A stretch of DNA of 64,000 bases, from the NCBI RefSeq assembly GCF_029962835.1, contig NC_080588.1, positions 48,529,001 to 48,593,000 on the forward strand, given 5' to 3'. A model generated the notes under the pieces. It was not told the origin of the DNA. It made no database searches and saw only the letters and a list, made by a program, of their open reading frames with translations. The position numbers and the translations under genes were made by a program. This stretch comes from Magnolia sinica (taxonomy: Eukaryota; Streptophyta; Magnoliopsida; Magnoliales; Magnoliaceae). Within the stretch, counting starts at the first letter, position 1. Each line of letters starts with the position of its first letter. Below, piece by piece: positions 1 to 53,722 of this stretch.

Positions 1-137
1 GAATTTTGAGGTTGTTTTAATTTACTGCATTGTAATTTACTTTGGCTATCATTTTCTTTATTATTCCGCAGTTATAAGTTTTTATTTGGCATTGTCCTAT
101 TCAGCCCCCCTCTAGGACATATAGCTTGGCCTTTTCA
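1..137 (+). repeat. 3' end of the 5' LTR of Copia-1
   Basis: These bases repeat at 8904-9040 with three substitutions. The LTR ends with CTTTTCA at 137, followed directly by AG and the primer-binding site. The rest of this LTR lies before the window. Confidence 0.95.
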
Positions 138-139
138 AG

Positions 140-151
140 TGGTATCAGAGC
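140..151 (+). other. Primer-binding site of Copia-1 (initiator Met tRNA)
   Basis: TGGTATCAGAGC starts two bases after the LTR end. It is complementary to the 3' end of plant initiator-methionine tRNA, the usual primer of copia elements. Confidence 0.95.
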
Positions 152-212
152 CTAATAGCTCCTTTTTAATTCTTGGATTTAATTCCTGAGCTAACGATTT
201 AAGCTATTTAAG

Positions 213-1768
213 ATGTCAAATTTTGATAGCCTTTCACACAGGCCTCCACCCTTTGATGGCTCCAACTATGCTTATTGGAAAGGGAATGAGGATCTTCCTC
301 AAATCAATGGATGAAAATGTGTGGCAAGCCACGGTGGTGAATGGAATCCTCCTATCATGGAAGTTTTGGGGTTGATGGTTCAAAATCTATGAAACCACAC
401 CATATTACCAATGGACCACCCTTGAAAAGTGAGAGTAGTGCAAATGCTAAAGCACTAAATGCAATTACTTGCGCACTATCACCGGATGAGTTCAAAAGAA
501 TCATTTCCTGTGCCAAAGCAAGCTTGGGATATATTAGAAATGACACACGAGGGTACTACAATTGTCAAAAATCTAAAGTCCAACTCCTCACAACCGATTT
601 GAAGAAATTCATATGGAGGAAAATGAAATGTTTATGGACTTTTACACTAGATTGAATGACATTGTAAACTCAATGTGGGGTCTTGGCGATAAAATCCCGG
701 AAAGTAAAGTGTGTGCAAAAATACTACGCTCACTTCCCGAACGGTTCAATTCTAAAGTAACCGCAATCCAGGAACTTCGTGATACGGATAATATGAGGGT
801 TGAAGAACTAGTTGGTTCTCTACAAACCTACGAGTTAAACTTTAAAGCTCCTAAAGGTAAATCTATCGCCTAAAATCTTCTAAATGTAATTCAGAAGAAC
901 TGATTCAGAAGATGATATGGCTCTTTTAGCTAAAAATTTTACAAAATTTTCAAAAGCAAGAAAAGGGTTGATTTTCAAAAATCAAATGACAAAAGGAAGT
1001 TTAGACCCAAATTTCAAAAATCTTTGAAAGATAGTCAATGTTACAACCGTCTAGAATATGGGCACTTAGCAAATAGATGTCCTAAAAGGGACAAACCCAA
1101 GAAGAAGGGTATGTTGGCTACATGGGATGAATCATCCGATTCTGAAGGTTCTCCTGAATCAGAAGATTATGAAACTGAGTCGGGCAATGAGGTTAAAGCT
1201 CTTATTCTAGCCAAATTCACATTTTCAGATAATGACTCTACAAGTGAAGAAAATCCGAATAGTGAATGTGAAAATGAAGATGATCTTCAAGACGCTTACA
1301 ATGCCCTATATAAGGAAAGTTGTAAAATTGTTTTAAACTTAAACTTCAAAAAGAAAAGTTTTCTAAACTCAAAAATTGTTTTGAATCACTTGTCTTAGAA
1401 AATCACAAATTTCAGATTGTTTTGAAAAATCAAAATGCGATTTGGAATTCAAAAACTCTCTAATTGTTGATTTAAAATCTGAAATTGAGAAACTTAAAAT
1501 TGAAGTATCCTCTCTTCTGAGTTTAAAGGACACATGGAAATATGCCCAAGGTGATCCAAAGTTAGAAAAACTGTTATCCAGATCAACAAAATGTGGCGAT
1601 CGATCCGGGTTGGGCTATGATAAAAATCTACCTCCTAAACAAAAGTATACTCCTCCTATGTTTGTTAAAGGAGAGTCCTCAAACTCAAAAGGGAAAAGTA
1701 CTTATCAAGATTTTTCTAAAAATTCAAAAACTTTTCAAAAACCTAGAAACAGCCATAATCAGAAATGA
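213..1768 (+). pseudogene. gag: gag of Copia-1, frameshifted
   Basis: The likely start is the ATG at 213, whose product begins MSNFDSLSHRPPPFDGSNYA, the usual N terminus of copia gag (DUF4219/UBN2-type capsid). The frame breaks near 285 and is then spread over several frames (341-655, 613-873, 1024-1398, 1442-1768). The capsid-like part is at 613-873. A CCHC zinc knuckle lies at 1036-1080 but its second Cys is replaced (CYNRLEYGHLANRC), so nucleic-acid binding is probably lost. An acidic Ser/Glu-rich linker follows, then a basic C-terminal tail. Gag would form the virus-like particle. Many indels and stops make this a clear pseudogene. Confidence 0.88.
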
Positions 1769-1888
1769 AATCCACTAGCTGAAAAGATAGTTGATTTACT
1801 CAAGGAGCTCTTAAAATCTAACTCTACAGGTCATTCCTACAAATATACACAAAAGAAGACCAACTATGTTCCTAAACCCAAAACAGTT

Positions 1889-2330
1889 ATGAAATGGGTT
1901 CCTAAAGTTACCTGCTTGGTTGCTCACACTGCTTTCAAAGCAACAAGTCATTCAAAGTGGTACCTAGACAGTGGATGCTCCAGGCATATGACAGGTGACA
2001 AAGCTTTATTCACCGATCTGAAAGATATGACTGATGGTTCAGTCACATTTGGTGATGGTAGCAACTGCAAGATTATAGGCCAAGGTACGGTTCAACTTTT
2101 TAATCTTCCGTGTTTAAAAATGTTTTATACGTTGAAGGCCTAAAGCACAACTTGCTTAGTATATCACAAATATGTGATAATAACCATAATGTTCGGTTTT
2201 CTAATCAAAGTTGTGAAATACTAAATAATAAGGGTTCTGTAATATTAACTGGATGTAGAACGTCCGAAAATTGCTATATTATTAGTGAATCCACTCATCT
2301 AATCAAACATGTTACATGGTCCATACAGAC
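1889..2330 (+). pseudogene. pol: Aspartic protease region of Copia-1 pol
   Basis: The frame opening at 1889 contains WYLDSGCSRHMTGD, the copia retropepsin active site (D-S-G) with the usual His and Met that follow. The catalytic Asp is intact. The frame shifts near 2105, and the segment after it (2110-2391) continues the protease and the pre-integrase region with the typical GLKHNLLSISQICD block. The protease would cut the Gag-Pol polyprotein in the particle. It is broken by the frameshift but its motif is intact. Confidence 0.9.
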
Positions 2331-3404
2331 AGACCGATTTATGGCACAAACGTCTTGGACATGTACATTATCGAAAATTTATATCGATTGAGCAAACGAG
2401 AACTTGTAAGAGGTTTACCCAAACTTCAAAATTTAGATAAAATATGTGGTGAGTGCCAGATAGGCAAACAAACAAAGAACTCACACAAAAGGTGAATTCA
2501 AATACCACATCAAGACCATTCGAACTTCTCCACATGGACCTGATAGGACCTACCGAACGGAAAGTCGTGGTGGTAAAAAGTACATCTTGGTAATAGTTGA
2601 TGACTTTACCGATTCACTTGGGTAGTCTTCTTAAGGGATAAATCAAACCCTTGAAGAAGTAAGAAAAGTTCTCAAAAGGATTCAAACTGAAAAATCCTTC
2701 TCAAATCAAGAAAATTCGTAGTGATCATGGATCCGAATTTGAGAATAGCAATTTTGAGAAGTTCTCATCGACCAAGGAATATTACATGAATTCTCTGCTC
2801 CCAAAACTCCACAACAAAATGGAATTGTAGAAAGAAAGAATAGGGTGCTTCAAGAAATGGCTAATGTCATGTTGAATAGCATGAAGCTCTCTAAAAATCT
2901 TTGGGTTGAAGTAGCACAACTTGCTATATTATTAACCGAGTCTACACTAGCAAAGATAATAATAAAACGGCTTACGAATTGTGGTTCAATAAAAAGCCTC
3001 TTGTTAAATACTTTCGAGTTTTTGGCAGCAAGTGCTATATTTTACATGATCGTGAAAATTTGGGAAAGTTCGATACGAAGAGTGATGAAGGTATTTTTCT
3101 AGGATATTCTTTAAACAATCGAGCTTATAGGGTCCTGAATAAAAGGACTGGTGTGATTCAAGAATCCATTAATGTTGTCATTGATGATCACTTAAACACA
3201 CCAATCTCTAATTCAGATAATGATGAAGTACTAATCATTGATAAACCCGATACTTCATCGAATCAGATTGATTCTGAGTTGAGGACTGTTAAAGATCATC
3301 CAACCACACAAATTCTTGGAAACCCTCTCACCGGTGTTCGCACCCGTAGACAACTTGAGGATATATGTAATTATGTATGTTTTACATCCCAAATTGAACC
3401 ATCT
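2331..3404 (+). pseudogene. pol: Integrase of Copia-1, multiply frameshifted
   Basis: The zinc-binding segment can be read across frames at about 2340-2480 (a His pair, then CGEC). The catalytic core follows: the first Asp at about 2535 (HMDLIGP), the second in DHGSEFE at about 2722-2745, and the Glu in NGIVERKN at about 2818-2841. The conserved C-terminal part of copia integrase (VFGSKCYI, FLGYSLNNRAYRVLN) is clear within 2979-3160. The core triad is still recognisable, but at least four frame changes occur. Integrase would join element cDNA to the chromosome. Confidence 0.85.
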
Positions 3405-4920
3405 AACGTAAAAGAAGCTCTGGCTGATGAAAACTGGATTGTTGCGATGCAAGATGAACTCAACTAATTCGTAAGAAATGATGTTTGGTATCTCGTACCA
3501 AGACCTAAAGATAAACACATCATTGGAACAAAATGGATTTTCAAAAATAAGTCTGACGAATGTGGAAATATAATTAGAAACAAGGCTAGACTGGTGGTAC
3601 AAGGTTATACTCAAATTGAAGGGATTGATTTCGATGAAACCTTTGCACCAAGAGCACGTCTTGAATCTATCGACTATTTATATCCATTGCATGTTTTAAA
3701 AGATAAAGATCTATCAAATGGATGTAAAAAGTGCTTTTCTAAATGGCGATTTACATGAAGAAGTCTATGTTGAACAGCCAATGGGATTTGAAGATTCCAA
3801 AAATACTGATCATGTATATCGGCTTAAAAAGGCACTTTATGGATTAAAACAAGCACCTAGGGCATGGTATGAGAAACTAACATAATTTCTTTTAAGTCAT
3901 AATTTTCAAATGGGATCTGTCGATAAAACTCTATTTGTTAAGAAACATAATGATCATATCTTAATGGTACAAATTTATGTTGATGATATCATTTATGGAT
4001 CAACTTGTACTAACTTGACTACTGAGTTTGCAGATTTGATAAAATCACAGTTCGAAATGAGCATGGTTGGGGAATTGACTTATTTCCTTGGATTGCAAGT
4101 AAAGCAACAACCTGAAGGAATATTTATTTCTCAATCTAAGTATGCCTTAAATCTAATCAAGAGATTTGGATTTGAGAATGGCAAGAATTTCGATACTCCT
4201 ATGAGTACTACCCTGAAACTATCAAAAGGCTCTAATGGTAAAAATGTTGATTCAAAACTTTATCGGAGTATGATTGGTAGTTTGTTATATTTAACTGCTA
4301 GTAGACCTGATATTTCTCTAAGTGTTGGTATTTGCGCAAGATATCAATCTGATCCAAAAGAATCTCACTTGATTGCTGTCAAGCGAATTATTAGATATGT
4401 CGCAAGTACTGTAAATCTTGGTCTCTGGTATCCTCATGAAACCAATGTTCAATTAGTTGGGTACTCGGATGCTAACTAGGCTGGTAATTTAGATGATAGA
4501 AAATCAACCAGTGGTGGTTGTTTTTTTATTGGAAATTGTCTAGTTTCCTGGTTTAGTAAGAAATAAAATTCTATATCACTTTCAACAGCTGAAGCTGAGT
4601 ATATCGCAGCTGGTAATGCATGTACACAGCTTGTTTGGATGCAACGAATGCTAAGTGATTATGGAATTAAACAGGATTCTATGTTATTACATTGTGATAA
4701 TTCCAGTGCAATAAATATTTCAAAAAATCCTATTCAGCATTCTCGTACTAAGCACATTGACATTAGATTTCATTATATAAGGGAATTAGTAGAAGAAAAA
4801 GTTATATCTCTAGAATATATTCCTACTGAAGATCAACGAGCTGATATTTTCACAAAACCTCTTGATAAAAGCAGGTTCAAAAAGATGAAATTTGATCTTG
4901 GTATGTGCATTTTAAATTGA
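3405..4920 (+). pseudogene. pol: Reverse transcriptase and RNase H of Copia-1
   Basis: A copia RVT_2 domain starts around EALADENWIVAMQDEL (3408-3464) and is interrupted by a stop at 3465 and frame changes near 3660-3720. The catalytic YVDD is intact at 3976-3987, and the frame 3910-4479 is open. RNase H follows: GYSDAN at about 4459-4476, then a TAG at 4477 where the family has Trp. Next come KSTSGG, a TAA at 4564, STAEAEY and LHCDNSSAI. The last frame (4639-4920) ends with the usual GMCILN and a TGA. The Trp-to-stop change is a simple G-to-A transition, as expected from decay of methylated DNA. Confidence 0.92.
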
Positions 4921-5017
4921 TAATTTATGCCTTCTTGTATTATATTGTATATATTTGCTAGATTGAATTCCAATTTTTGTTTAAATTGCAAGAAAATTGA
5001 ATTTTTTGGGGTTTATT

Positions 5018-5082
5018 CGACCAGTCATGAGTAGACACGACCAGTCGTACTACGACCGGTCGTAAATACCCACGACCAGTCG
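5018..5082. promoter_or_regulatory. Cluster of four CGACCAGTCG-type palindromes upstream of the extra ORF
   Basis: The spacer between pol and the extra ORF (4921-5375) has no coding signal. It contains four near-identical palindromic decamers at 5018, 5038, 5053 and 5073 (CGACCAGTCA, CGACCAGTCG, CGACCGGTCG, CGACCAGTCG). The same motif is reiterated in the U3 part of the LTR (7455-7832), which is where retrotransposon enhancers lie. A pyrimidine-rich stretch (about 5107-5155) and a conventional leader follow before the ATG at 5376. I infer a possible internal promoter or enhancer for the extra ORF; there is no direct proof. Confidence 0.5.
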
Positions 5083-5375
5083 TGGAACACGGGTTCACTT
5101 AAAATTGGGAATTTTTTCCTTTCTTCCTCATTTCTTCTTTCTTCTCCTTGGAGCCGAACTTCGACTCGTCGAACCCATCCTTCAAATTCTTCAATGTTAG
5201 TGTTTCAAATCCATTTTTCTTGCATATTTGTGTCTAGATTGTCTCCTTTTCTCTCTTGAAGCTTTTTATTTTGAAAATCATTGAGTTTGGAGTTTGGATT
5301 GTGAAAAATCTGTTTTGAGCAAACCCACTTCTCAACCCTTTGCAACTTCTTTATTCCTTTAAATCCTTGTTGTAA

Positions 5376-6514
5376 ATGGCTTCTAGAGGTAGAAAAACTA
5401 CTTCACGTGGTCCTTCTTCTTCCTCCAGATCAACCCCTATCTCTAAACGTCATCTTCTTGTTCCCAATGATGATCCATCATTTGTTAGGGACATTAGATC
5501 TCGTAAGGTTATCGTTGAACATCCTGTTGATGTCAATCACATTGCTCCATTTGACATCCTTCCTGTACTTGAAGCTGTAGGTTGGACTAACTTATTGCAT
5601 TGGGGTGGGCCTGCATACCGGTCCATTGCCCAATCCATGTTTTCATGTATTAGTGCATTTTCACAGGATAATTTAACTTTTCAAATTTCTACTAGAGAAG
5701 GGCCATTTGACGTTGATCGTTATTTAATTTCAGCCCTTATGGAAATTCCTGTGAATGATGAGGGTATTCCAATTCATAATTTAACTGATAAACCCTCAAT
5801 GGCTGAAAAACGCATGCTCACTAGAGACTTGTGCAATATGGATGTTCAATGGACTCAAAAAGGGAATGCGCTCCCTGCAAGGTATTTGTTACCCAAATAC
5901 AGAATTCTCCACAGAATCTTTGTGTCTAATCTGTATCCTCGTTCGGGTAATAAATCTGATTGACTTCATTTATGGTTCGTGTTATCCATGCTATCTCAAA
6001 TGGTACTCAGATTTGTTTGCCATCCTTAATCTGTCATTTCATTATTCAGTTTCGACTCCATCCTGGTCATAGTGACATTCCTTTTGCCTATTTTATGACC
6101 GTATTGGCTACTTATATGTTAGTCGATATGCCTATTGATGAAGCACCAATCCATCATCTGATCTTCAACAATACAAATATCAATAAGATGAAGTTGGATC
6201 TGCTTCCTGAACAAGGTGGTGGTGGTGGTGGTGATCATGAAGAAGCTGATGTTGACATTAATATGGATGACATTTTTGAGGAACTGGATTCTGACTCAGC
6301 TAATGATCCAGATTTTATACTATCTGATGTTGATGCACGTCTGAGTGCATTAGAAGGTAAAGTTGAGGATATAAATGTTAAGTTGGAAAACATGTCTGTT
6401 GCTCATGATTTGCAATTCAAGTATATGCGCAAATATCTTAGGCGCTTGAACAAAGGCATGCACCAACTTGATCCTTCTATTCCTGCTCCATCTTCAAGTT
6501 CTAGTTCTGACTAG
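5376..6514 (+). pseudogene. Extra 3' ORF of Copia-1 (plant transposon protein, env-like position), one frameshift
   Basis: The ATG at 5376 opens 195 codons (to 5963); the reading continues in another frame from about 5960 to 6514, so a single-base indel near 5958-5962 splits a product of about 380 residues. The N terminus is Ser/Arg-rich and the middle is globular, with LHRIFVSNLYPRSGNKS at the break. Then come GTQICLPSL, an acidic stretch with a Gly run (about 6209-6235), a DARLSALE coiled-coil-like segment and a Ser-rich tail. I see no signal peptide or convincing membrane span. It fits the family called 'putative plant transposon protein' (Pfam Transposase_32, named from memory). It sits where SIRE elements carry their env-like gene. 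A homologue is at 40298-41517 in an unrelated element. Confidence 0.75.
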
Positions 6515-6999
6515 TTTTTATGTGACTTCTGGTCTGTAATAACTTTATTACTTAGCACTTGACTGATTTTGATTTGGATTCTATCTATGTTTAATGCTGG
6601 ATATTTGTTCTTGATGTAATATTTATGCTGGATATATGTGATGCTATCTTGAGTATTTCTATGACTCTTTTGCTATACTCTATTTCCTCCTTCTGTTTAC
6701 TCTCATTCTTTTATTTAGTTCTCCTTTATCATATTGTGACAAAAAGGGGGAGAATGGTTTGTTGTTAATATGATTGTGAGAGGAGTAGCATTGGTTATGT
6801 TACTCAGGGGGAGTGGGGTGTCAAGGGGAATATATGTTTGATCTTGAATATATGTTTGATCTTGTTGAATGATAATGGTTGAATGTTGAAACTGGTTGAA
6901 TGTTGAATGTTGAATATTGATTTACAGGTATTAACCAGTTGTTTTACACTTGTTTATCTTGATTATGTGTTTTGTCACTAATTTGACAAAGGGGGAGAT
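6515..6999 (+). other. 3' untranslated region of Copia-1 with two polypurine tracts
   Basis: No coding signal. A first polypurine tract (AAAAAGGGGGAG, 6741-6752) lies well inside and a second (AAAGGGGGAGA, 6988-6998) abuts the LTR. The second should prime plus-strand synthesis; the first could be an auxiliary central-type tract or a relic. Short direct repeats of GTTGAAT lie at about 6879-6920. Confidence 0.75.
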
Positions 7000-7454
7000 T
7001 GTAAGTGCTATAGTTTCTATCCCTGTTTGTTGTCAAATTTGTAGTGCCAAAATCACTATTATATATAACTTGCATAAGTGAAGCTCTCTTAAGGATCAAC
7101 ATTCATAAACAAGCTAAGCTCACAACAAGCAAAACTCTCAAGTACAAGACTCAAGATCTTGAATGAAAGAACTGCTCACAAGACAAGACTCTGGAATGAA
7201 AGAACTGCTCACAAGACAAGACTCAAGCTAAACTCAAGACTCAAGCTGAAACTCAAGCCACTTTTAAGATTGAGTTACATGAAGAGTTCAACTATATCAA
7301 GACTTCAAGACTGATACTTCAAGGTCACTTGTTCCTAATGCTTCAATGTCCATACTTCATGATTGAGGTTTGTTTGACCATAGGTTGACCTTAGAAGTAG
7401 GTCATTTCGGATACATAAGTCGAATGTTATTTTTTATGTGATTGGTCTGTTCTT

Positions 7455-7832
7455 CGACTAGTCCTAGGCCTTCTTCGACTAGTCCTAGACTTGCTTCGAC
7501 CAGTCTAAGAAATTCCTCGACCAGTCGTAAGTTTGTTACAAATTCCGGATAAAATCTGTTAGCCTTCGACTAGTCCTGGAATCTGTTCGACCAGTCGTAG
7601 GAACAGTGTCGACTGATCTTCGACCAGTCGTACAACCTTCGACTCGAAGTCCAGCGATGGTTTACAGGACCTACGACCAGTCGAAGGAAACCTACGACCA
7701 GTCGTAGGTGACCTACGACCAGTCGTAGGAAAGCTTCGACCAGTCGTAGAACGGTCAAAGCATATCCCGCCGGATTTTTCAAATATCTGTTAGTGCTTCG
7801 ACTAGTCGAAGAGTACTCTAGACCAGTCGAAG
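7455..7832. promoter_or_regulatory. Array of CGACYAGTCG palindromes in U3 of the Copia-1 LTR
   Basis: About 13 copies or near-copies of a palindromic decamer (CGACCAGTCG, CGACTAGTCC, CGACCAGTCT and similar) lie at irregular 20-45 base spacing. They end just before the TATA box at 7849. Often the motif extends to CTACGACCAGTCGTAGG. Position and reiteration suggest binding sites for a dimeric transcription factor. The array also recurs at 14305-14629 and 5018-5082. Confidence 0.7.
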
Positions 7833-7848
7833 ACCCGATCTTCTCACC

Positions 7849-7856
7849 TATAAATA
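7849..7856 (+). promoter_or_regulatory. TATA box of the Copia-1 LTR promoter
   Basis: TATAAATA follows the palindrome array at the expected place in an LTR. The matching site of the second element is TATAAAT at 14648. Confidence 0.75.
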
Positions 7857-9040
7857 GTGCACGAATCTCAGAAGAAATCATCGAATTAATTAAAGTATCC
7901 AAGCCAATCCTCGTCGAACTTCTGAGAGATAATTCTGTGCTCCATCTAAGCTAAGTGTGCTTATTTAATATTCTCTTTCCTTAGCTTTATTTTAATTGAT
8001 TTTGTTTCTTATATTCCAATCTGATTTAATAAGAGGAATTATTATTCCCTTTCTTTGGAATCAAAATCAATTAAGGCAAGCCCTATTTGGTTTAATTTAA
8101 AATCTATTAGAATTAGAACCATTGTAATCGAGTACTGGACATTGAACTTGGACATTCAATCATCTACTTTGATTTGGTTCTACCGGGCTGCTACAACGAA
8201 GGAGATTTTCAGGTATTTTACATATTGTAAATTCCTTTCTATTATTTTGGTTTCTTTCAAGATTTGCCAGAAAAATCTTGTTATTTTGGTTATCTGAGGA
8301 AAGCCAGGAAAACTCAGAAGTGGGGTTTTTTTAATTGTGTAAGCCCACATACAAAGACACAATTGTAAGGGTTTTGGGTGAACCTGGGAAAACCTATTTT
8401 TAGTGAACGCTAATATTCCCTGTGTGAGGATATTAGGAGTGGAGTAGCATTTTGTGTGGCTGTTGTTTAACAGTTGGTGAACACACAGGCAAACCACTAT
8501 AAACCCTTGTGTTGTGGTTGATTGTTTTATTCTTCTAATTTTTTATTCTTTTTGTGGGATGTATGTATGGTGGTGAATGTTGTAATTATTTCAAGCTTTG
8601 TGAGAATGTTGTAATAGCTTAGAATTTACTTTCTGCTATTCCTTTATAAGCTTGATTTCCAATTTCATTTGAAAGTTGTTCCAGCAAGGTTGCCCTGCCA
8701 TTTTTATGGTGTATGGCTGTCCCTAGAACAATACATCTTTAATTACAAGTTATTTCAATTCAGTTTATATTTATTTTTGTATTCCTCTTCAATTTGAGAC
8801 TTGATACAAAGACCTTTCTAGAAATAAGGTTGTCCTACCATAAACTCTGTTTTTGGTGTAAAGTTGTCCTTAGAATAACGTTTGTATCAACCTCTCAAGA
8901 TCTGAATTTTGAGGTTGTTTTAATTTACTGCATTGTAATTTACTTTAGCTATCATTTTCTTTATTATTCCGCTGTTATAAGTTTTTATTTGGCATTGTCC
9001 TATTCACCCCCCCTCTAGGACATATAGCTTGGCCTTTTCA

Positions 9041-9930
9041 CCTCTCCATGGGCCTAATATACATCATAATGGACTCCATCGCCTGGCCCTTGCATCGCAA
9101 TGGGCCTCATTACATAGGCCTAATATACATCACAATGGGCCTTCAACATGGGCTGGATACACATCACAATGGGCCTTCAACAGGGGCTGGATACACATCA
9201 CAATGGGCCTCAAATACGGGCCGCATATACATCACATTGGGTCCGTCAATCGGCCTCAACAATTAGAATCAACAGTCGGAATTAGCCTCGATAATCGAAA
9301 TCGGCCTCGACAATCGGAATCGGCCAATACAATCGGCCTCAACAATCAGAATCAGCCTCGATAAACAATCGAAATCAGCCTAACAAAGGGCCTAAGAGAA
9401 GGTGACAATGAGGACATTTAACCATCGTTGCCCAACAATGTGGACATTTAACCAACATTGCTCCCAAGGAGTGGCCCTCATAGGGCCAAACATATAGTGG
9501 GCCCATAGCTTCACATAAGGGCCTAATATACATCACCATGGGCCTCACTCAAGGGCCTAATATATATCACTATGGGCCTCGGCACATATGCTATAAATAT
9601 ATCACATCAGGCCTCACTCAAGGGCCCCAAATGCATTATATTGGGCCTCGCCAAATAAGTCACAAATACATCACTTGGGCATCATCAAATGGGCCTCATA
9701 TACATGAAGTGGGCCGTATCACATTGGGTCAAATCAAATGGGCCGATTCAAGTGGACCGATTCAAATGGGCCGAATCAAATGGGTTGAATCAATGAGCCG
9801 ATTCAAATGGGCCAAATCAAATGGGCTAAATCAAATGGAACAAATCAAATGGGCCGAATCGATGGGTCGATTCAAATGGGCCGAATTAATGGGCCGAATC
9901 AAATGGGTTGAATCCAATACACCATTCATC
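9041..9930. repeat. Degenerate minisatellite of the ATACATCACAATGGGCC type
   Basis: Units of roughly 20-40 bases built around ATACATCACAATGGGCCT change gradually into AATCAAATGGGCCGATTC units toward 9930. Apparent open frames here are products of the repeat (MGLI..IHHNGL periodicity) and not genes. Confidence 0.8.
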
Positions 9931-10383
9931 CATTGTTAGAGATTATTTTAAAGCATTTATCGCAAAGTGAATTATATCCCAAGGATCATCTAGATCATAC
10001 CACAAATGGCGGTGGTGATAATGATTTCTATTGCTATATTTCCAGTGGGCCGACCATAATATTTATTTTCTATTCAATCTGTGCATGAGGTCACAAAGAC
10101 CTGGTTATAGAGGAAAAACAAATATTGTATAGGTCCAAGACCCTGCAATCAAAGGGGTTTTTAATGGTGGACGTTCATCCCACTGTTCTCTATAGTGTGG
10201 TCCACTTGATATTGGACCTGCTTTATTTTTAGTCTCAAGCCTGGAGACAGGCTCGCCAAATGGATAGACGGTAGGATTTAACACATGCATCAAAGGGTGG
10301 GACCCATTGTCCCAGCTTACGGACAGTGTGGAGCCAGTCCGCTCGTCAGGTGGGTCCCACATACATGGGCCACCCCACTTCCC

Positions 10384-26547: not shown

Positions 26548-26609
26548 CAACCTGTTGATAAAGGAGGCATTACACACTACAAGATAATAGGCATTTAGCC
26601 ATAATTTTT

Positions 26610-31960: not shown

Positions 31961-32508
31961 GAAAGGAGAGACACCATATAAATGTTTTCCTTTTGCCTTT
32001 CTTTCATCTGTTCTAGGCAAGGTAGAAGGCATCAATCAAACATGGTGCAATTCATAACATGATTATCTTATGAGTTCTGACCAATCCCTTACTGTATCTA
32101 TCATGAAAATTTGGATTTAGGGGATCTGCCGTACCTGATCCTTGCCGTATCTATACTCAAGTACTGTATTTTTATACAATTTTCTCTAAGAAGATAGTCA
32201 TGCATGTGATTTAGCAGTGGTAAGAACTTTTCTTTGGCTTACTTCACCAATTTGCTACTGAGCCATTGAATTGCCTATGGATGCATTTGTAACTTTGAAA
32301 TCTTTTGCCAAAGAACAAGAAAAAGAAGGAGACAAGTTTTTTTCTTTTGCCAGAGAAGAAGGTGACAAGTTTTATTATTTATAAGTATGGGTAGGATGTG
32401 TTTGGATGATGCTTGTAAATAGGGTTAACTGTAAATGATTTACAGGTAAATGGTTTATAGTCTGTGTTTGGATGCTTAAAATTGCCTGTAAATGCTTTTC
32501 TATGGCTT
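31961..32508. other. Non-coding CACTA interior before the nested chromovirus
   Basis: No gene signal. At 32398-32490 a motif GTGTTTGGATG appears twice around repeated GTAAATG, reminiscent of hAT-type MITE ends. 32504-32508 (GGCTT) is the target duplication of the chromovirus. Confidence 0.4.
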
Positions 32509-35495
32509 TGTAATGCCCTGAAATTCGGGGGTCGAGCATAACTCAGCTCCCGAGTTCCAAAACATCACTTATACAACATAATTAATGAATGATGTATGTT
32601 GACTGTATTAGCACATAAACATGGGATAGATTAAGCCAAAACGCAGATATGATTCAGGGATAAGTGAATAAAGCAAGCGGAAGACTTATAGTAAAATATG
32701 TGTACAAGTGTAAGTCCCTGAATTACATATACAACCAGATCGTGTAAAAGTGTTATTTATCAAAATTATAAGTACAAGTTACATCATTTTTCCCAAAAAT
32801 AATCCCATAGATCCCCCGACACCGAGGCTCGCTAGAACCCGTCTCAAAACCGCATATAGGAGAAGGCACTCTGCTCATCCATCGCTCGCCTCGACCGCAT
32901 CCACATCTCGCAACATCGGGCCTAAGAAGAGTCCGGTGGGTGTGTAACACCGCCTTAAACGTGGGAGTGAGTGATCAACTCTGGAACATTAAGGCAGTGG
33001 TTAACCTGCTATCAGTTCACTCAAACATAATGATAAAGCATAACACTTAAATAAAGCCTAAGTACTCTTATTAATGCAGTATGAATGCAATATGATGCGT
33101 GCCCTCACACGTACACCCTCCGTCTTCATCTTACGTTACGCATGACATCGCCTCAAAGTGCGCCACATCTACAAAGCACATGCAAATGCGGTGCATGATA
33201 TGATTACCAAGTTGTTATTAGTCCTTTTCATACAGCAGGATTGGGAAGCTAAAGTACCTTCCTCATATCACCATCCAAACAGTAATCCATACTAAGGTCG
33301 TCAATCCTAGATATCTCATACGATCATATAGTTGAGGTCGTAGCAAAGGGCTCGCCACCAATCAATGCACGCCTTTCATGCCCTTACTACCACAGATCGG
33401 CTCGTCACCTCCTTGCGGTATCCGGATGCTCGAGGTCACTATAAAGGGCTCGTCACCAATCAATGTAGGCCGACAAAGACGAATATAGTGTCCCATACCA
33501 CCATAATCGGCCACGAGTTAAGTTGCTCACGGTCACTACGGGAGGCTCGTCACCCCAACGTAGGCCGGCTGACCACGGTGTCCCATACCACCATGTCCCT
33601 CATGAGTCTTAGTGGATCGTACCATGGTTATTAGGATTTCCCTGGTAAGTTCGGTATTCAAGCAATAGCGCCCATACATGGTTAACATACCTCGACAATC
33701 GGGTTAGTTGACGAACTCGACTAGCACGAGCGCACGTTGAATTGAACGACATAGAGTGCGCAAACACTCCGCGTGGCCAAACCACTGCCGCCAACTCTAA
33801 TACGGCTCGGGTTCGTCTAATACGTCCTACGTGGCGAAAGCAATCTCAACCACGATTCATAGGGTCAATTACCGATTTCCTGGACTAAGGCATAGTCCCA
33901 AACATCCTACACTACGACAAATATTCATATGGAATGTAAAACAGTAATGGAACAACCACTCAAATCATGGTGCATACACATCTGAAGAATACCAACTTAA
34001 CATAAATGTAAGCATAGGAATGCTTGAATTTAAATAACTTGGAATGTAAATGCATAAAGGAAATCATGCGCATCCATAGAAGTATTGAGAACCACTTCTC
34101 AACGCCTGCATTTAGTGTAATCAGTTACACTTAGATCATTCATGCATTTCTACAAACACTTAGCATACAAGGAACAACATACATGACGTATGTTGGAATA
34201 CATGTACTTAGGCAATTCCCTTTACCAAGGAGTTGTCATACATGCATCTAGCATACATACATGACCAATAATCATGGCAAGCACAAGTGCGTATTTTATA
34301 GTATACGGTACTTTATAAATACACTTAGAATACACAAATCTCAATATAGCACATGCATATCGTGAAAGCAATGTAAACATAACATTTGACATGTGAAATC
34401 TCATCCATAACAAGAATAAATCACTAACGGGATTGAAAGCCTTGAAAACCATAACCTATACACTTAAAGTCCGCACCTTAAGCAAAGAAAGAACCGCCGA
34501 ACTGATTTAGACGAGTTGTATGGCGCTAAAATACCCTAAAATAAGGATAGAAATGAGATACAACAACACCAAGTCTAATCTAAGCTCTAACACGGGTTAG
34601 GGTTAGGTTAACTTACCCCAAAAGAACTCAGAATCGTCAGAGGAACGATTCAAAGTGAAGGTTCAAAGGTGAAGAAGAACAAGGAAGAATCAAGATGATT
34701 CACCAACCAATCTCTCTCACTAACTCTCTCTTTTCCACTCTCTCTCAAGCTAGGGTTAGAGAAAAATCGTATGGAAATGAGAGCTAGGTTTAAGGACTAT
34801 ATATAGGCCTTAAAATGATGGAAATAACCCGAGGCCAAGGTTACTTAGGTTATAACCAAAGCACGCCTTTCTCGATCCAACGAAGCACTTCGGTGGGCCT
34901 ATAACCACGAAAGGCGGACTTAAGCTCACCGACCATGGATCTAGGTCAGCTGAGTTTTCATACCGCTATAGATCAACCGTGGCGGACCACACTCAATTCA
35001 ACGGCCACAATCTCGATCAGTCCACAAGCACTAGGATATGCCTGGGCCAACCATCCCGATCGGAGGGTGAAATTGGGTCGAATCCAACGGTCGAATGCTT
35101 AAAATCGTCGCGTAAGCAACACGACTCGATTTCATAAAAAGCTTATTAAATTCCAACCGTTTCACACTCTTCACTCGAACTCAACCAAATCGACCTAGAA
35201 AGATCGACTTGATTTTGAGGTGAAGACCAAGCCCAACTCTGTGACAAATGCCTAAGATCATCGCCATCGGACTTTCGACGCCGGAGTCCGATCCGATCTT
35301 CCAAAAATCCCGAACAACCGGATTTAGGATGGATCCTGCATTTCGAGTAACATATACTAATCTACACGTTTAGAGCCATGCAGATACAATTTAAAGTGAT
35401 TGATGCGAATTTCACAAGCAATCAAGTAAAGCGCTAATTGCCCCAAAAACAACTACTTAAGGAAAGATTAGCACAAAAATTTCAAGGTCGTTACA
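32509..35495 (-). repeat. 3' LTR of Chromovirus-1 (2987 bp)
   Basis: It aligns end to end with 42262-45302. A TATATATA box on the minus strand is at about 34805-34797. Differences from the partner LTR are mostly short indels, many in CG-rich places. Confidence 0.93.
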
Positions 35496-35508
35496 ATCTA
35501 CCCCCCTT
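35496..35508 (-). other. Polypurine tract of Chromovirus-1
   Basis: On the minus strand AAGGGGGGTAGAT directly precedes the 3' LTR, as expected for the plus-strand primer. Confidence 0.85.
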
Positions 35509-35990
35509 AAAGAAAATTTCGTCCTCGAAATTCATACCTTCATATAATCCTCGAGGATCGGAGGGTAGGTCTTCCCGACCTCCCGATTCCCAAGTAGCCT
35601 CTTCTACGCCACGATGCGTCCATAAGACCTTCACAAGAGGGATAACCTTGTAACGCAATACCTGCTCCTTCAATACGCGTCGGTCGCAGAACATAAGTGG
35701 CATCCTCACTCAACCGCACTTGCTCCCAACGATAATATGCGAAGGATCAGGAACGTTCTTCAACATAAAAACATGAAATACGTTATGCACGCCCGCAAGA
35801 GGTGTGGGCAAAGCAAGGCGGTATGCTACCGCTCCCACTCGATCCAACTTGAAATGGACCAATAAATCTCGGCCTCTCCCTTCTTACCGAACCGCTAACT
35901 CCCTTCATAGGAGAGACCTTCAAACACATGATCTCCCACTACAACTCAAGCGGTCGACGCCGACGATCAGCATTGCTCTGCACTGTTAGA
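35509..35990 (-). pseudogene. pol: Chromodomain and C-terminal tail of Chromovirus-1 pol
   Basis: The frame 35709-35491 reads RRVLKEQVLRYKVIPLVKVL and then WTHRGVEEATWES, a typical chromoviral chromodomain, with the pol terminus NFEDEIFFKGG next to the polypurine tract. Such domains steer integrase to marked chromatin. The integrase C-terminal region upstream (35990-35710) is frameshifted. Confidence 0.85.
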
Positions 35991-36742
35991 AGTCGACGCG
36001 AATGATGTCAACCTTCTCTCAAGTCACCTGCACCTCTAGGCCAAGCAAACTACGCCACCAATTTCTGCCCAGCAAGTGGTGCTCTGCACGGCGACCATAC
36101 AACGCCTCGTAGGGAGCCATGCCGATACTCGAAACTATTATTATAAGCGAACTCGATCAATGATAATCATCCCAACCGTCTTTGAAATCCAAAACACAAG
36201 CTCGCAACATATCTTCCGAGATTCACGCGCTCCGTCCGCCCATCTGTTTGCGGATGAAACGCGGTGCGACTATTTCACACCCATCGCTTCCCGGATACGA
36301 GTCCAAGATAGATGTAAAACGCGTGTCTCTATCGACACAATCTCCAGGGGAACTCCACGCAGACGCACTATCTCCTGATATACAACCTAGCCAACTCGTC
36401 GAGTAAGTGACTCGGATCGGTAAAAAATGCGCCGACTTCGTTAATCGATCGACGATCACCCAAATATAATCAAATCCCTTTCTCATCCTCAGCAACCCAT
36501 AAATAAAATCCATAGAGATGAAATCCCACTTCCATTCAGCTATGGGCATGGGCTGCAACAACCCAGGAGGTCGGCGATGCTCTGCCCTTGACTGCTGGCA
36601 CGTGAGACAACGAGAAACAAATTCAGCAATCTGGACCTTCATATTGTCCCACCAATAAGACCTCTTCATATCCCGATACATCTTCGTGCTACCGGATGCA
36701 TCGCAAGCTTAGAACTATGGGCTAACTCGAGAACCTCACGCC
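35991..36742 (-). pseudogene. pol: Chromovirus-1 integrase
   Basis: The frame 36681-36223 shows RSYWWDNMK, then FVSRCLTCQQSRAEHRRPPG (second half of the HHCC finger) and WKWDFISMDFIYGL with the first catalytic Asp. VIVDRLTKSAHFLPI is also present. The frame drifts near 36370, and the second Asp (DRDTRFTS) is at about 36325-36302. The DDE Glu region is only faintly visible. Confidence 0.88.
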
Positions 36743-37240
36743 TCAAGTCAGGGATGTCAGGAACACATAACCGGCCACGAAAACGTAGGCCCCCATCAGA
36801 ACTAACACTCCAGTCGGAGTTTCCATCGTACCAACCCGCTTCCTCATCTTCACTAAAAGCTCATCATCTGCCTGAGCTGCAAGGATCCACTCGTCGATAA
36901 GGGGCTGGACACGAATGTGTGCGATAACCTCATACGGCTCAACCACCGTAAGCTTCTGCTCAAAATCGCGCACGAACTCCAACTCTGCTATCATCAGCGG
37001 AGCAGCAAACTCCAAAGCCTTCTTCTCACTCAATGCATCAGACACAAGGGTCGCCTTACCAGGATGGTAAGAAACATCGAACTTAAAGTCCTTCAATGTT
37101 TCCATCCATCGGCGCTGCCTCATATTCAAGTCACGCCGCGTGAAGATATACTTAAGGCTCTTGTGGTCACAAAAGAGCTCGAACTCCTCACCATAGAGGT
37201 AATGTCTTCAGAGCTTTAATGCAAACATGAACTCCAGGTC
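36743..37240 (-). pseudogene. pol: Chromovirus-1 RNase H, C-terminal part
   Basis: [20 protein letters not shown] and [15 protein letters not shown] at 37129 downward are the end of the gypsy RNase H and the start of the integrase linker. The upstream part (37240-37130, FKYLF-type block) is in other frames. Confidence 0.87.
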
Positions 37241-38715: not shown

Positions 38716-39988
38716 TCAAAGGACCTCGAAGTCAGACATAGGCGCTTCAGCAGAAAGCGCATGAACACGAGCCGCCGACGATTCGGCGGAGGAACCATGG
38801 GCCGCCGAGGTGGCCTGAAACCAGAACCGCAGTCCAAGGATGGATGAGCTGGCGCTGATCCAAGAGGAGGAGGAGAAATAACCGAGGCATCGGACGGCTA
38901 ACCCTCTCCGGTGGAGTAAAACCACCTGCTCGCATGGAAAAGCAGAAACGGTCCAAGTGCCCAACCTTCCCACAATAAGAACATCTCAGATCAGCTCTCA
39001 TCTGCTGAGCGGCGGCGCTAACGCCCAGGAGGAGAATCAACACGCGGCCTCTTGCCAAGGAAAGGTGCACTCTGAAAGTCGCGGCCTAGGAGACATCGGT
39101 GCTCGCATGTGGGACGCTCTATCTCCGTCCCGCTCGCTCGCAAGGACATGCTCACTAGCTCGCATATGAAGAAATGCTAGCACAACAAAATCTTCGATTC
39201 GATCTCAGGTCGCAGCCCCTCATAAAAACGCCGCATCCTCATCGGCCGATCACCAAGATCAAAGGAACATACCGCCCCAACTCAAGAAACCGGTTCTCAT
39301 ACTCCGTAACCGACATCCCTCCTCGGCGGAGGCGAAGGAACTCACTCTCCTTCTCGTGCTGGTGTAACCGGAAATACTTCTCGTGGAAGCGCCCTCAAAC
39401 GCCCGCCACGACCACACGAAGTCCTCTTCGACAGGGCGAAGCACACTGTCCCACCACAAACCGGCCTCCTTCTCAAACATGAAGGTGGCAAGCTCAACTT
39501 GCTCGACCTCAGAGCACAGTGAAGCGGCCTCAAGATCTTAGAGATGCGGTCAATCCAATACTCGGCCTCCTCGTCCATGAGAACCCGCAAAAGTAGGAGG
39601 TCGCAAGCGCTGAATCGCTCAGAAGTGTCGCTGGCATGGCACTGGCACTCCCTGATGGAGGCATAGGTGAAACAGTTGGAGTCGCCTATCGACTGAGCAA
39701 AGATGCCACCATGGAGGAGAGGAACTCCTCGCCGCCGTGTGGCCGGCTGCTGCGCTGCAAATCGCCAGATCAACAACATCATCTCGCTCAAACCTATCAA
39801 CAGTGAAGCGTAAGAAGGTGCATGGCTCGGCCCAGGAACCGGGGTGTGACCGGAGGAGCCATAGGTGTCGACCCAACACCAACACGAGATGGACCCGCCT
39901 GTGGATCTGACTCGCTATCGCTCAAGGGAGGAACCCCAACAAGCGACTCAAAGAGAGACGGCCGAAGTCTTCGAACCCTCAGAGGCAT
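38716..39988 (-). pseudogene. gag: Chromovirus-1 gag
   Basis: Scattered over several minus-strand frames. The retrotransposon-gag capsid appears in 39800-39342 (ERFSACDLLLLRVLMDEEAE, then YWIDRI) and 39480-39259 (LWWDSVLRPVEEDFVWSWRA). The zinc knuckle CSYCGKVGHLDRFC (perfect CX2CX4HX4C) is at about 38986-38945. The N-terminal part (39988-39797) is Ser/Pro-rich. The upstream extra ORF ends at 40298. Confidence 0.82.
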
Positions 39989-40297: not shown

Positions 40298-41517
40298 CTA
40301 CTCGTCGGAATCAGGAGACGGAGGCGGAGCACCCTTATCCTGCAAGCAACACAGGATAAACTTCAAAGTCCGAGACATCTTCTTGAACTTGTGCTTAACC
40401 AAGCCTCGAAGATCAACCATCTCCTGGCGAAAAGCAGCTTGCCCTTCTTCAAGCCGTGTAAGACGGGCATCTCTGGCAACCTGCTCTGGCACCACAAGAG
40501 GAGAGCTATCACTCGAATCCTGTGCCTCAATCTCTTCCTCGTCTTGCTCTGCTTCTTCCTCAGACTCCGCACCACCTTCAGCATAACTCTCATCGTCACC
40601 ACTCTCAGACCCGGCCTCACCCTCAGAGGCAAGCCGACCAAAACCAACCTCCATCAGCTTAAGGGTCCTCAAGTTGATATAGCGAACAGGGACCGGCTTC
40701 TCAGCTCCAAGCCTATAGCCAAACTCATGTGCGATCTTGCAAATGAGGCGGCCAAAGGGAAGAGACTCGGTCCGTCTACTCGAACGAGCGATGAGAATAA
40801 TCTGACGCAGGACGTACGTCGGCACACACAACTTCGCATCCTGCCCCACCTGATATAGGAAATCTACCATCAGGCGCGTACACTCGCTGCGGTTGCTCCA
40901 CCTTGGATATACATTGAACGTAAAGATGTGGTGAAGCAAACGGAAGTCGTCCGTCATGAAAGAAGCCAGAAGACTCCTATTCGGCTGCCATTCAACCAGA
41001 CGACCACACAAGGATCGGGTGCGACGATCCTTCTCGCCACACTGTCCACATTCTTCTCGCTGGCATGCACTTCCCCAAGTGGCACCTTCAAGAGTCGGGA
41101 TATCAAAGCAACATTGACAATTCCAACTCGACCGCTACCACAGGGAATCTTGAACTGCAGAGGATCCAGCGAAGGCTCCAGAATGTTGGCATAGAAGGCC
41201 CGAGTGCTAGCATTCGCGCGATACTCGCCTTCGAACAAGGGACCCCAACCAGCCCCTTCTAGGCGCTCCAACAAGAAGAACTCTCCAAAGAGCCGCGGAT
41301 CAACATGAGCCTCAAAAAGGACTCTACGCCCCTCATAGACTCCATGCGACAATTCCGCCAACAAGGTCCTACTGACAGGAGCTCGAGGATCGAGGTCCCG
41401 CTTCGTCTGGAACTCGCGCGTGGCGGACGTGCTAGCGGCGGCACCTCTCGGCCTCCGTGCACGGGTTGGGCGGCTCGGCCCGACTTCATCCACGGGCGCT
41501 CTCTTCTTCCCCATCAA
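40298..41517 (-). pseudogene. Extra 5' ORF of Chromovirus-1, homologous to the Copia-1 extra ORF
   Basis: Two overlapping minus-strand frames (41517-40954 and 41011-40298) make one product of about 390-400 residues with a single frame change near 41000. The N terminus is basic (KKRAPVDEVGPSRPTRARRP), the middle globular with LERLEGAGWGPLF and LHHIFTFNVYPRWSNRS (40936-40886). An acidic region follows (about 40620-40520, Glu/Asp/Ser-rich), then DARLTRLEEGQAAF with coiled-coil character and a Pro/Ser tail. Order and motifs match 5376-6514 in Copia-1. It fits the 'putative plant transposon protein' family; its role is unknown. It lies between the primer site and gag, an unusual place. Nearly intact compared with the rest of this element. 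Confidence 0.78.
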
Positions 41518-42258: not shown

Positions 42259-42261
42259 ACT

Positions 42262-45200
42262 TGTAACGCCCTGAAATTCGGGGGTCGAGCATAACTCAGC
42301 TCCCGAGTTCCAAAACATCACTTATGCAACATAATTAATGAATGATGTATGTTGATTGTATTAGCACATAAACATGGGATAGATTAAGCCAAAACGCAGA
42401 TGATTCAAGGATAAGTGAATAAAGCAAGCGGAAGACTTATAGTAAAATATGTGTACAAGTGTAAGTCCTAATTACATATACAACCAGATCGTGTAAAAGT
42501 GTTATTTATCAAAATTATAAGTACAAGTTACATCATTTCAGTTCCCAAAATAGTAATCCCATAGATCCCGCACAACAAGATCGAGGCTCGCTAGAACCCG
42601 TCCGGAAAACCGCATATAGGAGAAGGCAGCCTCGTCATCCAGCCGCTCTGCCTCAGACGCGCATCCACATCTGCAACATCGGGGCCAAGACAGAGTCCGG
42701 TGGGTGTGTAACACCGCCTAAACGTGGGAGTGAGTGATCAACTCTGGGTGCTATAAGGCAACGGTTAACATGTTATCAGCTCAATCAAACAGTAATGTAA
42801 AGCATAACAATTAAATAAATCCTAAGTACTCTTATTAATGCAAGTATGAATGCAATATGATGCGTGCCCTCACCGTACACCCTCACCGTCTTCATCTTAC
42901 GTTACGCATGACATCGCCTCAAAGTGCGCCACATCTACAAAGCACATGCAAATGCGGTGCATGGATATGATTACCAAGTTGTTATTAGTCCAATTCATAC
43001 ACGATTGGGAAGCTAAGATACCTTCCTCATATCACCATCCAAACAGTGATCCATACTAGGGTCGTCAATCCTAGACATCTCATACGATTTATATTTAAGG
43101 TCGTAGCAAAGGGCTCGTCACCAATCAATGCACGCCTTTCATGCCCTTACTACCACAGATCGGCTCGCACCTCCTGCGGTATCCGGTATGCTCGAGGTCA
43201 CTACAAAGGGCTCGTCCACCAATCAATGTAGGCCGACAAAGACGAATATAGTGTCCCATACCACCATAATCGGCTCACGAGTTAAGTTGCTCACGGTCAC
43301 TACGGGAGGCTCGTCACCCCAACGTAGGCCGAAAGCGACACTGTCCCATACCACCATGTCCGGCCATGAGTCTTAGCGGATCGTGTACCATGGTTATTAG
43401 GATTTCACTGGTAAGTTCGGTACCCTAGATTCAAGCAGTAGCGTCCATACATGGTTAACATACCTGGACAATCGGGTTAGTTGACGAACTCGACTAGCAC
43501 GAGCGCACGTTGAATTGAACGACATAGAGTGCGCAAACACTCCGCGTGGCCAAACCACTGCCGCCAACTCTAATACGGCTCGGGTTCGTCTAATACGTCC
43601 TACGTGGCGAAAGCAATCTCAACCACGATTCATAGGGTCAATTACCGATTTCCTGGACTAAGGCATAGTCCCAAACATCCTACACTACGACAAATATTCA
43701 TATGGAATGTAAAACAGTAATGGAACAACCACTCAAATCATGGTGCATACACATCTGAAGAATACCAACTTAACATAAATGTAAGCATAGGAATGCTTGA
43801 ATTTAAATAACTTGGAATGTAAATGCATAAAGGAAATCATGCGCATCCATAGAAGTATTGAGAACCACTTCTACGCCCGCAATTAGTGTAATAAATTACA
43901 CTTAGATCATTCATGCATTTCTACAAACACTTAGCATACAAGGAACAACATACATGACGTATGTTGGAATACATGTACTTAGGCAATTCCCTTTACCAAG
44001 GAGTTGTCATACATGCATCTAGCATACATACATGACCAATAATCATGGCAAGCACAAGTGCGTATTTTATACGTATACGGTACTTTATAAATACACTTAG
44101 AATACACAAATCTCAATATAGCACATGCATATCAGGAAAGCAATGTAAACATAACATTTGACATGTGAAATCTCATCCATAACAAGAATAAATCACTAAC
44201 TGGGATTGAAAGCCTTGAAAACCATAACCTATACACTTAAAGTCCGCACCTTAAGCAAAGAAAGAACCGCCGAACTGATTTAGACGAGTTGTCTTCGTCA
44301 ACGGCGCTAGAATACCCTAAAATAAGGATAGAAATGAGATACAACAACACCAAGTCTAATCTAAGCTCTAACACAGTTAGGGTTAGGTTAACTTACCCCA
44401 AAAAGAACTCAGGAATCGTCAGAGGAACGATTCAAAGTGAAGGTTCAAAGGTGAAGAAGAACAAGGAAGAATCAAGATGATTCACCAACCAATCTCTCTC
44501 TCTAACTCTCTCTTTTCCACTCTCTTCCAAGCTAGGGTTAGAGAAAATTCGTATGGAAATGAGAGCTAGGTTTAAGGACTATATATAGGCCTTAAAATGA
44601 TGGAAATAACCCTATGGTCAAGGTATACTTAGGTTATAACCAAAGACGCCTTCTCGATCCAACGAAGCACTTCGGTGGGCCTATAACCACGAAAGGTCGG
44701 ACTTAAGCTCACCGACCATGGATCTAGGTCAGCCTGAGTTTTCGTACCGACCTTCAGATCAGCCGTGGCGACCACACTCAATTCAACGGTCACAATCTCG
44801 ATCAGTCCACAAGCACTAGGATATGCATGGGCCAACCTCCCTGATTCGAGGGTGAAATTGGGTCGAAATCCAACGGTCAGATTGCTTAAAATCGTCGCGA
44901 ACGCCACGACTCGAATTTCATAAAAGCTTATTAAATTCCAACCGATTCTCACACTCTTCACTCGAACTCAACCAAATCGACCTAATCTCATCGACTTGAT
45001 TTTTGAGGTGAAGACCAAGCCCAACTCAGTGACCGCAACAGCCTAAGATCATCGCCATCGGACTTTCGACGCGCGGTCTAGGTCCGATCCAGATCTTCCA
45101 AAAAATCCCCAGAACAACTGGATTTAGCGATGGATCCCAGATTTCAGAGTAACATAGCGCTCACTAATCTACACGTTTAGAGCCATGCAGATACAATTTA

Positions 45201-45302
45201 AAGTGATTGATGCGAATTTCACAAGCAATCAAGTAAAGCGCTAATTACCCCAAAAACAACTACTTAAGGAAAGATTAGCACAAAAATTCCAAGGTCGTTA
45301 CA
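42262..45302 (-). repeat. 5' LTR of Chromovirus-1 (3041 bp)
   Basis: Aligns with 32509-35495. The minus-strand TATA (TATATATA) is at about 44587-44579. It is followed at 45303 by the target duplication GGCTT. Confidence 0.93.
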
Positions 45303-53714: not shown

Positions 53715-53722
53715 GTTTGGAT

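Follow-up and report, generated by a model that had tools for sequence, protein, structure and literature searches.

Two retrotransposons of different classes, a copia element and a chromovirus, lie in the 64,000-nucleotide stretch of Magnolia sinica DNA analysed here (the window), and each carries an additional open reading frame (ORF). By sequence comparison, these extra ORFs are beyond doubt homologous over their whole core and members of one family (PF20167, hereafter T32). It is highly probable that T32 represents a shared module, an accessory gene that plant mobile elements can pass on.

The initial annotation of the window had claimed a common order and common motifs for the two ORFs, and this was confirmed throughout: LHRIFVSNLYPRSGNKS in 5376-5960 stands against LHHIFTFNVYPRWSNRS in 41134-40301 (-), DARLSALE against DARLTRLE, and a basic N terminus, an acidic middle and a Pro/Ser tail are present in both. 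In the architecture of the family, a basic tail precedes a domain of about 180 residues, and an acidic linker leads from there to a short tail at the C terminus. The family name given initially, Transposase_32, proved correct, with both ORFs matching PF20167 ('Putative plant transposon protein'), the copia one below the curated cut-off. The open genomic copia copy reached E 4.7e-10 and 40.1 bits over profile positions 3-174 (cut-off 45), the open chromovirus copy E 4.7e-14 and 53.1 bits, above that cut-off, and the chromovirus frame 40301-41134 (-) of the window E 1.2e-08. A MULE-linked copy (L074) likewise lay above the curated cut-off with 66.1 bits, and the profile was matched by all 10 scanned rows of the copia and chromovirus alignment A1. 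Despite the name, transposase activity is not indicated for T32 here.

The HMM-HMM comparison of the copia and chromovirus profiles by hhalign (4-row vs 6-row) gave a significant match (probability 98.6, E 1.4e-15, 227 columns), which spans the core, residues 41-275 of the copia protein, and is thus not confined to the low-complexity ends. In a single BLASTP comparison, the open copies are 25% identical over 360 aa (91.3 bits, E 1e-24). When each open genomic copy was compared with the window by tblastn, the ORF of the other element was found at E 2e-14 and 1.4e-15, and the sole additional match up to E 1 had E 0.099. Twelve positions are invariant in the 10-row copia/chromovirus alignment, including D52, W70, H179, N185, Y187, P188 and N192 (copia numbering). 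Neither a relative of known structure (best E 0.31) nor a relative in viral contigs was found.

The features collected in Table 1 also bear out the earlier view that the carriers belong to different element classes and hold the ORF at opposite ends of their genomes. RVT_2, a copia gag domain and Sirevirus octamers characterize the one, and Ty3-type RNaseH, an integrase zinc-binding domain and SH3_Tf2-1 the other; the copia ORF lies between pol and the 3' LTR, and the chromovirus ORF between the 5' LTR and gag, on the minus strand.

Table 1. Features of the two T32-carrying elements, in window coordinates.
Feature	Position	Strand	Evidence or remark
Copia element, whole extent	upstream of window to 9040	+	LTR match, gag/pol pieces
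Copia 5' LTR, end	1..137	+	remainder upstream of window (LTR from L068:526 to window 137)
Copia primer binding site	140..151	+	TGGTATCAGAGC, presumably of tRNA-Met type, 2 bases past LTR end
Copia gag pieces, broken	341..870	+	PF14223 on 577-870, E 1.8e-13
Copia protease-integrase-RT-RNaseH pieces, broken	1769..4917	+	PF25597 2910-3464; PF07727 RVT_2 3886-4476
Copia extra ORF, N-terminal piece, first part of T32 domain	5376..5960	+	PF20167 E 1.8e-05; tblastn with chromovirus protein E 1.4e-15
Copia extra ORF, C-terminal piece, other frame	5960..6511	+	remaining domain, acidic linker, DARLSALE, Pro/Ser tail
Extra Sirevirus-type polypurine tract AGGGGGAG	6745..6752	+	motif search
Extra Sirevirus-type polypurine tract AGGGGGAG	6806..6813	+	motif search
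Terminal polypurine tract AGGGGGAG at 3' LTR	6990..6997	+	LTR match starts 6999
Copia 3' LTR	6999..9040	+	94.7% identical to 5' LTR
Chromovirus 3' LTR	32508..35495	-	match to 5' LTR
Integrase C-terminal SH3 + chromodomain remnant	35494..35883	-	PF24626 SH3_Tf2-1 38.2 bits, above cut-off
Chromovirus RNaseH + integrase pieces, broken	36226..37207	-	PF17917, PF17921
Chromovirus gag zinc-knuckle piece	38750..39085	-	CSYCGKVGHLDRFC in translation, taken to be the gag zinc-knuckle motif
Chromovirus extra ORF, C-terminal piece	40301..41035	-	T32 domain, acidic linker, DARLTRLE, Pro/Ser tail
Chromovirus extra ORF, N-terminal piece	41029..41514	-	97.5% vs residues 1-163 of open genomic copy
Chromovirus 5' LTR	42261..45302	-	93.3% vs 32508-35495 over 3066 columns

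The octamer AGGGGGAG, the Sirevirus polypurine motif as given in PMC2829016, occurs three times in the copia linker and nowhere else in 138-9040, its expectation in the shuffled linker being 0.006, and each of the eight fetched loci of this family (copia-1) contains three or four octamers. One copy adjoins the 3' LTR and further ones follow pol, which is the criterion for a Sirevirus. On these sequence marks, together with RVT_2 and the copia gag for the copia class, the element is classified as Sirevirus-type. Since the octamers lie behind the ORF, T32 stands where Sireviruses have their 'env-like' gene, between pol and the 3' LTR. Directly behind the copia 3' LTR, degenerate 34-base repeats (CATCACAATGGGCCT...) extend over 9117-9665. 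These repeats were apparently the insertion site of the element, because L068:381-525, just before the 5' LTR, matches window 9435-9580 behind the 3' LTR.

Both window copies of T32 are frame-broken. In the copia one the frame changes near 5960, between the pieces 5376-5960 and 5960-6511, and in the chromovirus one (41514-40301, -) the break is near 41030. The copia piece 5960-6511 is 94.6% identical to residues 196-379 of the open genomic copy, and the chromovirus piece 40301-41035 is 96.4% identical to residues 162-410 of its open counterpart. Among the fetched loci, 4 of 8 for copia-1 and 6 of 12 for the chromovirus have a complete T32 frame, the broken copy of the window being counted in each set. 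In the chromovirus, itself a broken copy, PF00385 (Chromo) scored E 0.0045 and 17.3 bits on 35494..35883, under its cut-off of 25.1. The 5' extra ORF and the LTRs of 3 kb are compatible with the Tekay lineage.

The genome searched comprises 1.84 Gb in 127 contigs, the window lying on a contig of 74 Mb. First-look candidates numbered 4,925 with copia DNA, 4,272 with chromovirus DNA and 13,875 with the Pfam profile, from which the best 40, 40 and 150, respectively, were scored. The copia and chromovirus T32 each belong to a large genomic family.

A third carrier was recognised from a T32 clade (L070, L074-L077) on the chromovirus side of a 30-row tree, with an antisense MULE transposase downstream of one of its members. 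The MULE protein of locus L085 combines the transposase, MuDR DNA-binding and SWIM domains that define a MULE (PF10551 at 72 bits, PF03108 at 51.5 bits and, in an overlapping piece, PF04434 SWIM at 33.1 bits). Two independent coordinate lists were compared, the best 150 T32 rows and the best 86 MULE transposase matches; 139 T32 rows were compared with the MULE list first and the other 11 separately. Among the matches listed, a MULE transposase follows downstream of 20 T32 rows, whose identity to the query is 75-100%; they represent at least 19 places on 10 contigs, one place being split into two fragments. The two genes lie 1612-2049 bases apart at 18 places and 1224-1460 bases apart at the split one, and they are convergent, on opposite strands, in 19 of 19. 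Because 19 such places were observed among the matches listed and 0.03 chance coincidences are expected, it is concluded that the T32 clade travels with a Class II (MULE) transposase, as shown by spacing and orientation, not by position inside TIRs. Four of the five tree clade members are among the 19 places, L075 being the exception. None of the 67 listed T32 rows at ≤51% identity has a MULE match within 4 kb. Among the matches listed, 63 of the 83 T32 rows at ≥58% identity are without a scored MULE nearby, and 67 of the 86 MULE matches, many of them >92% identical to the query, are without a scored T32, and T32 may mark a MULE subfamily. Another clade, E, consists of L080, L081 and L086; a long tandem array with coding-like repeats lies about 2-3 kb downstream of L080, and no carrier element was found in the 2.4 kb downstream of that locus.

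Four T32 trees were computed within this one genome, with 20, 30, 20 and 15 rows, of which 8, 8, 4 and 4, respectively, are copia rows. In each of them a single branch separates the copia T32 from all others (support 100/99 to 100/100). Interleaved copia and gypsy branches, which the initial annotation had named as support for its proposal, appear in none of the four. The copia-1 row forms a long branch (1.4-1.5 in the later 20-row and the 15-row trees), so its exact place is unsure, and the MULE-linked and chromovirus T32 group together against copia. A tree constrained to keep the six chromovirus rows in a single clade was rejected in the later 20-row set (p-AU 0.00015), where unlabelled C-like rows lay among them. 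Without these rows and clade E (15 rows), the six fell on one side with a support of 46/32 only, so that the MULE clade may belong either inside or beside the chromovirus T32.

All copia rows being on the same side of a single branch, copia and gypsy T32 can be explained by as little as one transfer, or by two captures from a common source. For three classes, with copia split from MULE and chromovirus, T32 must have changed its class of carrier at least twice, in whichever direction. Exchange across classes, one of the two options proposed initially, is strengthened by the MULE carrier; the interleaving named in its support was not seen in the trees of this one genome. Another reading of the same trees, which we consider possible although rather unlikely, is that each class of element took T32 independently from a plant host gene and that nothing passed between elements. 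It would agree with the two clean groups formed by copia and chromovirus T32 at about 25% identity in an unrooted tree and has a precedent in the plant mobile domain genes that MULEs took from host genes, as described in PMC5418596; however, no host (non-element) T32 is among the matches listed, and the MULE-linked T32 joins the chromovirus T32 against copia.

A second T32 type (L027/L044) resides in elements with a gag 50-67% identical to that of copia-1 (six loci), three of which have the primer-site motif. Five octamers were counted in L055 and four in L051, the only two searched loci that reach the region, and the T32 frame follows the end of the protease frame at about 0.4-1.2 kb. In none of the 14 copies examined (13 of the 144 scored places and L051 from a separate search) did the fetched sequence contain a match to integrase, RT or RNaseH, whereas the positive control recovered RT and RNaseH in 8 of 8 copia-1 loci. 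Gag and/or protease were recognised in 13 of these 14 pol-less copies; L067, with neither in a short fetched stretch, is uninformative, which leaves 13 informative copies. For 8 of the 14, about 1.5 kb before T32 was fetched, and the protease falls inside that stretch in 7, all but L067. With 144 scored places at 67-100% identity, the pol-less Sirevirus family has amplified, presumably by means of borrowed pol. L051:1-10000 contains positions 1-2374 again at 7644-10000 (90.7%), and two tandem pol-less units seem to share an LTR there, in the order LTR-internal-LTR-internal. Parasites of parasites lose those functions that are available in trans and retain those that serve their own copy. The pol-less family, having lost pol and kept gag and T32, follows this logic.

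T32 is under purifying selection. The pol-less T32 has a median dN/dS of 0.15, every pair being below 1 (76 pairs of 13 hand-chosen, stop-free copies), and values of 0.14 (65 pairs, 12 copies) and 0.20 (15 pairs, 7 copies) were obtained for the chromovirus and copia-1 T32; pairs with dS ≤0.02 or ≤60 codons were dropped. In the pol-less family, gag gave 0.30 (10 pairs, 5 copies) and protease 0.27 (41 pairs, 12 copies). The signal is frame-specific in this family: off-frame controls on the same T32 DNA yielded 0.96 and 1.42, and the non-coding spacer 0.56-0.67. For the MULE-linked T32, selection is only weak, at 0.22-0.93 (10 pairs of 5 copies, including L075, which has no scored MULE near). Many genomic T32 copies are broken, both of the window included, as would be expected of a functionless passenger spread by successful elements; given dN/dS of 0.14-0.20 in three families and the frame-specific signal, however, such a passenger is hardly credible.

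The T32 alleles of the pol-less family seem to be older than the elements that carry them. Across 12 copies, the row medians of flank identity are 0.82-0.87 and those of T32 identity 0.73-0.82 (0.85 and 0.63 for L051), and the flanks are more alike than T32 in 64 of 66 pairs; L067 was removed by hand and L058 for a flank identity <0.7. An identity step lies about 0.5 kb before the T32 domain, at full length in L055 vs L051. In five of six same-copy pairs, dS is 0.06-0.18 for gag against 0.54-0.93 for T32, where values near 1 are close to saturation, and in the sixth, a close pair, it is 0.06 and 0.09; T32 also exceeds protease in dS in 52 of 55 pairs. Fourfold transversions amount to 0.21 in T32, whereas the non-coding spacer next to it has 0.06, a contrast in which constraint on the spacer may have a part. 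CpG decay as the main cause of the divergence was ruled out, as transversions at fourfold sites outside CpG contexts are still 0.17 (median 27 sites) against the 0.06 of the spacer.

The tree of the flank and that of T32 are mutually incompatible (AU 2e-9 and 3e-4), also without L051, but so are the two halves of the flank and the two halves of T32 in control comparisons. The tree conflict was accordingly dropped as proof of T32 swapping, and the separate history of T32 was based on synonymous and fourfold divergence instead of topology. Recombination is a general feature of the pol-less elements. In the chromovirus T32 (27 rows), the identity step is absent, and divergence is no greater than in the flanks.

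These results bear on a role of T32 as a partner of Gag, in RNA packaging, as a chaperone or in nuclear import of the particle, which each retrotransposon would keep with its own gag. The basic N terminus and the joint retention of gag (dN/dS 0.30) and T32 (0.15) by pol-less elements speak for such a role, yet a tightly fitted pair should not differ in divergence depth within the same copies, and one T32 clade goes with a MULE transposase, where there is no Gag; we therefore judge a Gag partner to be unlikely.

A portable accessory protein under selection, with a host-facing role in the nucleus, is the best overall explanation, and one that could equally well turn out right or wrong. T32 is carried by Sirevirus-type copia elements after pol and by chromoviruses before gag, and it travels with the transposase of a MULE, an element that has neither particle nor reverse transcription. 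A role in particles, reverse transcription or an envelope alone is disfavoured because T32 is also found beside a DNA transposase. What the three carriers share is then the nucleus and silencing by the host, and a nuclear role is suggested by the fact that copia, gypsy and MULE elements all need the nucleus and transcription despite silencing. T32 might then act on the chromatin or transcripts of its own element, counter-silencing being the first candidate, and might chiefly benefit the copy, or the family, from which it is expressed. Action on the own copy could explain both the retention of T32, like gag, by pol-less elements and the diversity of its alleles. A counter-silencing or chromatin-targeting factor is a tentative proposal for the mechanism, somewhat less probable than not. 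More speculative still, and rather doubtful, is the wider picture of a counter-defence cassette, perhaps sequence-specific, that moves between Class I and Class II elements, gave rise to the Sirevirus env-like gene in this lineage, is kept even without an own pol, and whose allelic diversity reflects the contest with host silencing. Vandals are MULEs. A precedent for counter-silencing is named in PMC11728184, the aORF of Vandal DNA transposons, which is reported there to give sequence-specific protection from silencing.

The usual label of the Sirevirus post-pol gene, an envelope-like or cell-to-cell movement protein, is a further alternative. For a 19-residue segment, the usual hydropathy threshold for a membrane segment is 1.6. 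The maxima of the open copia (P0001) and chromovirus (P0004) copies are 1.33 and 1.27, giving no clear membrane segment, while two pol-less copies reach 1.59 in the leader of one and 2.12 inside the domain of the other. The position between pol and the 3' LTR, followed by extra polypurine tracts as in the env-bearing Sireviruses of PMC2829016, also agrees with an envelope. Against it stand the homologues that precede gag in chromoviruses or accompany a DNA transposase, and this function appears very improbable.

Extra ORFs in plant LTR elements are already known, as is PF20167 in an Athila aORF of sunflower, according to the sources considered. The accounts of plant LTR aORFs and eORFs in PMC6317226 (Neumann 2019) and PMC7264820 (Vicient and Casacuberta 2020) describe, as found here, a 3' sense eORF in SIRE and extra ORFs in Ty3 elements; the SIRE eORFs are divided in PMC6317226 into 19 groups that hardly resemble one another, and section 13 of that paper names domains for Ogre, Retand and Athila only. 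The present case differs from these accounts in that one family occurs in both a copia element and a chromovirus. The sunflower sections of PMC11728184 report partial similarity of an Athila 3' aORF to PF20167, hence a Ty3 carrier, and a 5' aORF in Tekay chromoviruses for which, unlike T32 here, no match to a known domain was obtained; these sections do not mention carriers among copia elements or MULEs. The env-like gene of MASiVEdb, as presented in PMC3414828, has the same place in the element with polypurine octamers behind it, but possesses transmembrane and coiled-coil domains, and no clear membrane segment is evident in the open T32 copies here; the origin and function of the env-like gene are given there as unknown or unproven, and PMC7264820 says that most antisense extra ORFs are of unknown origin.

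Among accessory genes shared across classes, the plant mobile domain is closest, being common to Gypsy elements and MULEs, with an anti-silencing role speculated on by the authors of PMC5418596. It corresponds to pfam10536 (PMC6317226), which is not among the matches of the scanned T32 proteins, and the relevant part of PMC5418596 mentions no copia carriers, which T32 has. The ORF3s of bdelloid rotifers (PMC5408684) are, like T32, common to different classes, namely LTR and Penelope-like elements; unlike T32, the shared ones described there are enzymes of animals, and no DNA transposon is named. The passages surveyed from this literature contain neither a statement of one family in copia, chromovirus and MULE nor a report of pol-less Sireviruses retaining a T32-type ORF, and priority is claimed for neither.

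One family in copia, gypsy and MULE elements turns scattered orphan ORFs into a single question and imposes a sharp constraint, namely that the function of T32 must also make sense beside a DNA transposase. Non-autonomous LTR elements that retain gag are known as TR-GAG. The pol-less family differs from these in that gag, the start of the protease and an accessory gene are kept jointly, and its elements, in which selection maintains gag and T32, offer themselves as natural constructs for testing which functions act in cis and which can be borrowed.

Further repeats are present in the window. A second copia fragment at about 14300-17870 (+), with an LTR remnant 69-80% and a pol 77-84% alike to the first copia element, contains no T32 detectable by tblastn. 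A Ty3 element at 47918-59483 (-), which we take to belong to the Athila lineage, has long open frames for gag, protease and RT-RNaseH-integrase and LTRs of 96.8% identity. From 49900 to the end of pol, neither T32 nor any other additional ORF of ≥100 aa is present in it, nor did tblastn with T32 give a match in this element. PF03078, searched with Athila in mind as a further carrier, had 0 matches in this genome and also 0 in control genomes, so that such elements may be present undetected. Finally, a tandem array at 26602-27187 is built from a 42-base unit, with nine registered copies of a 251-base reference.
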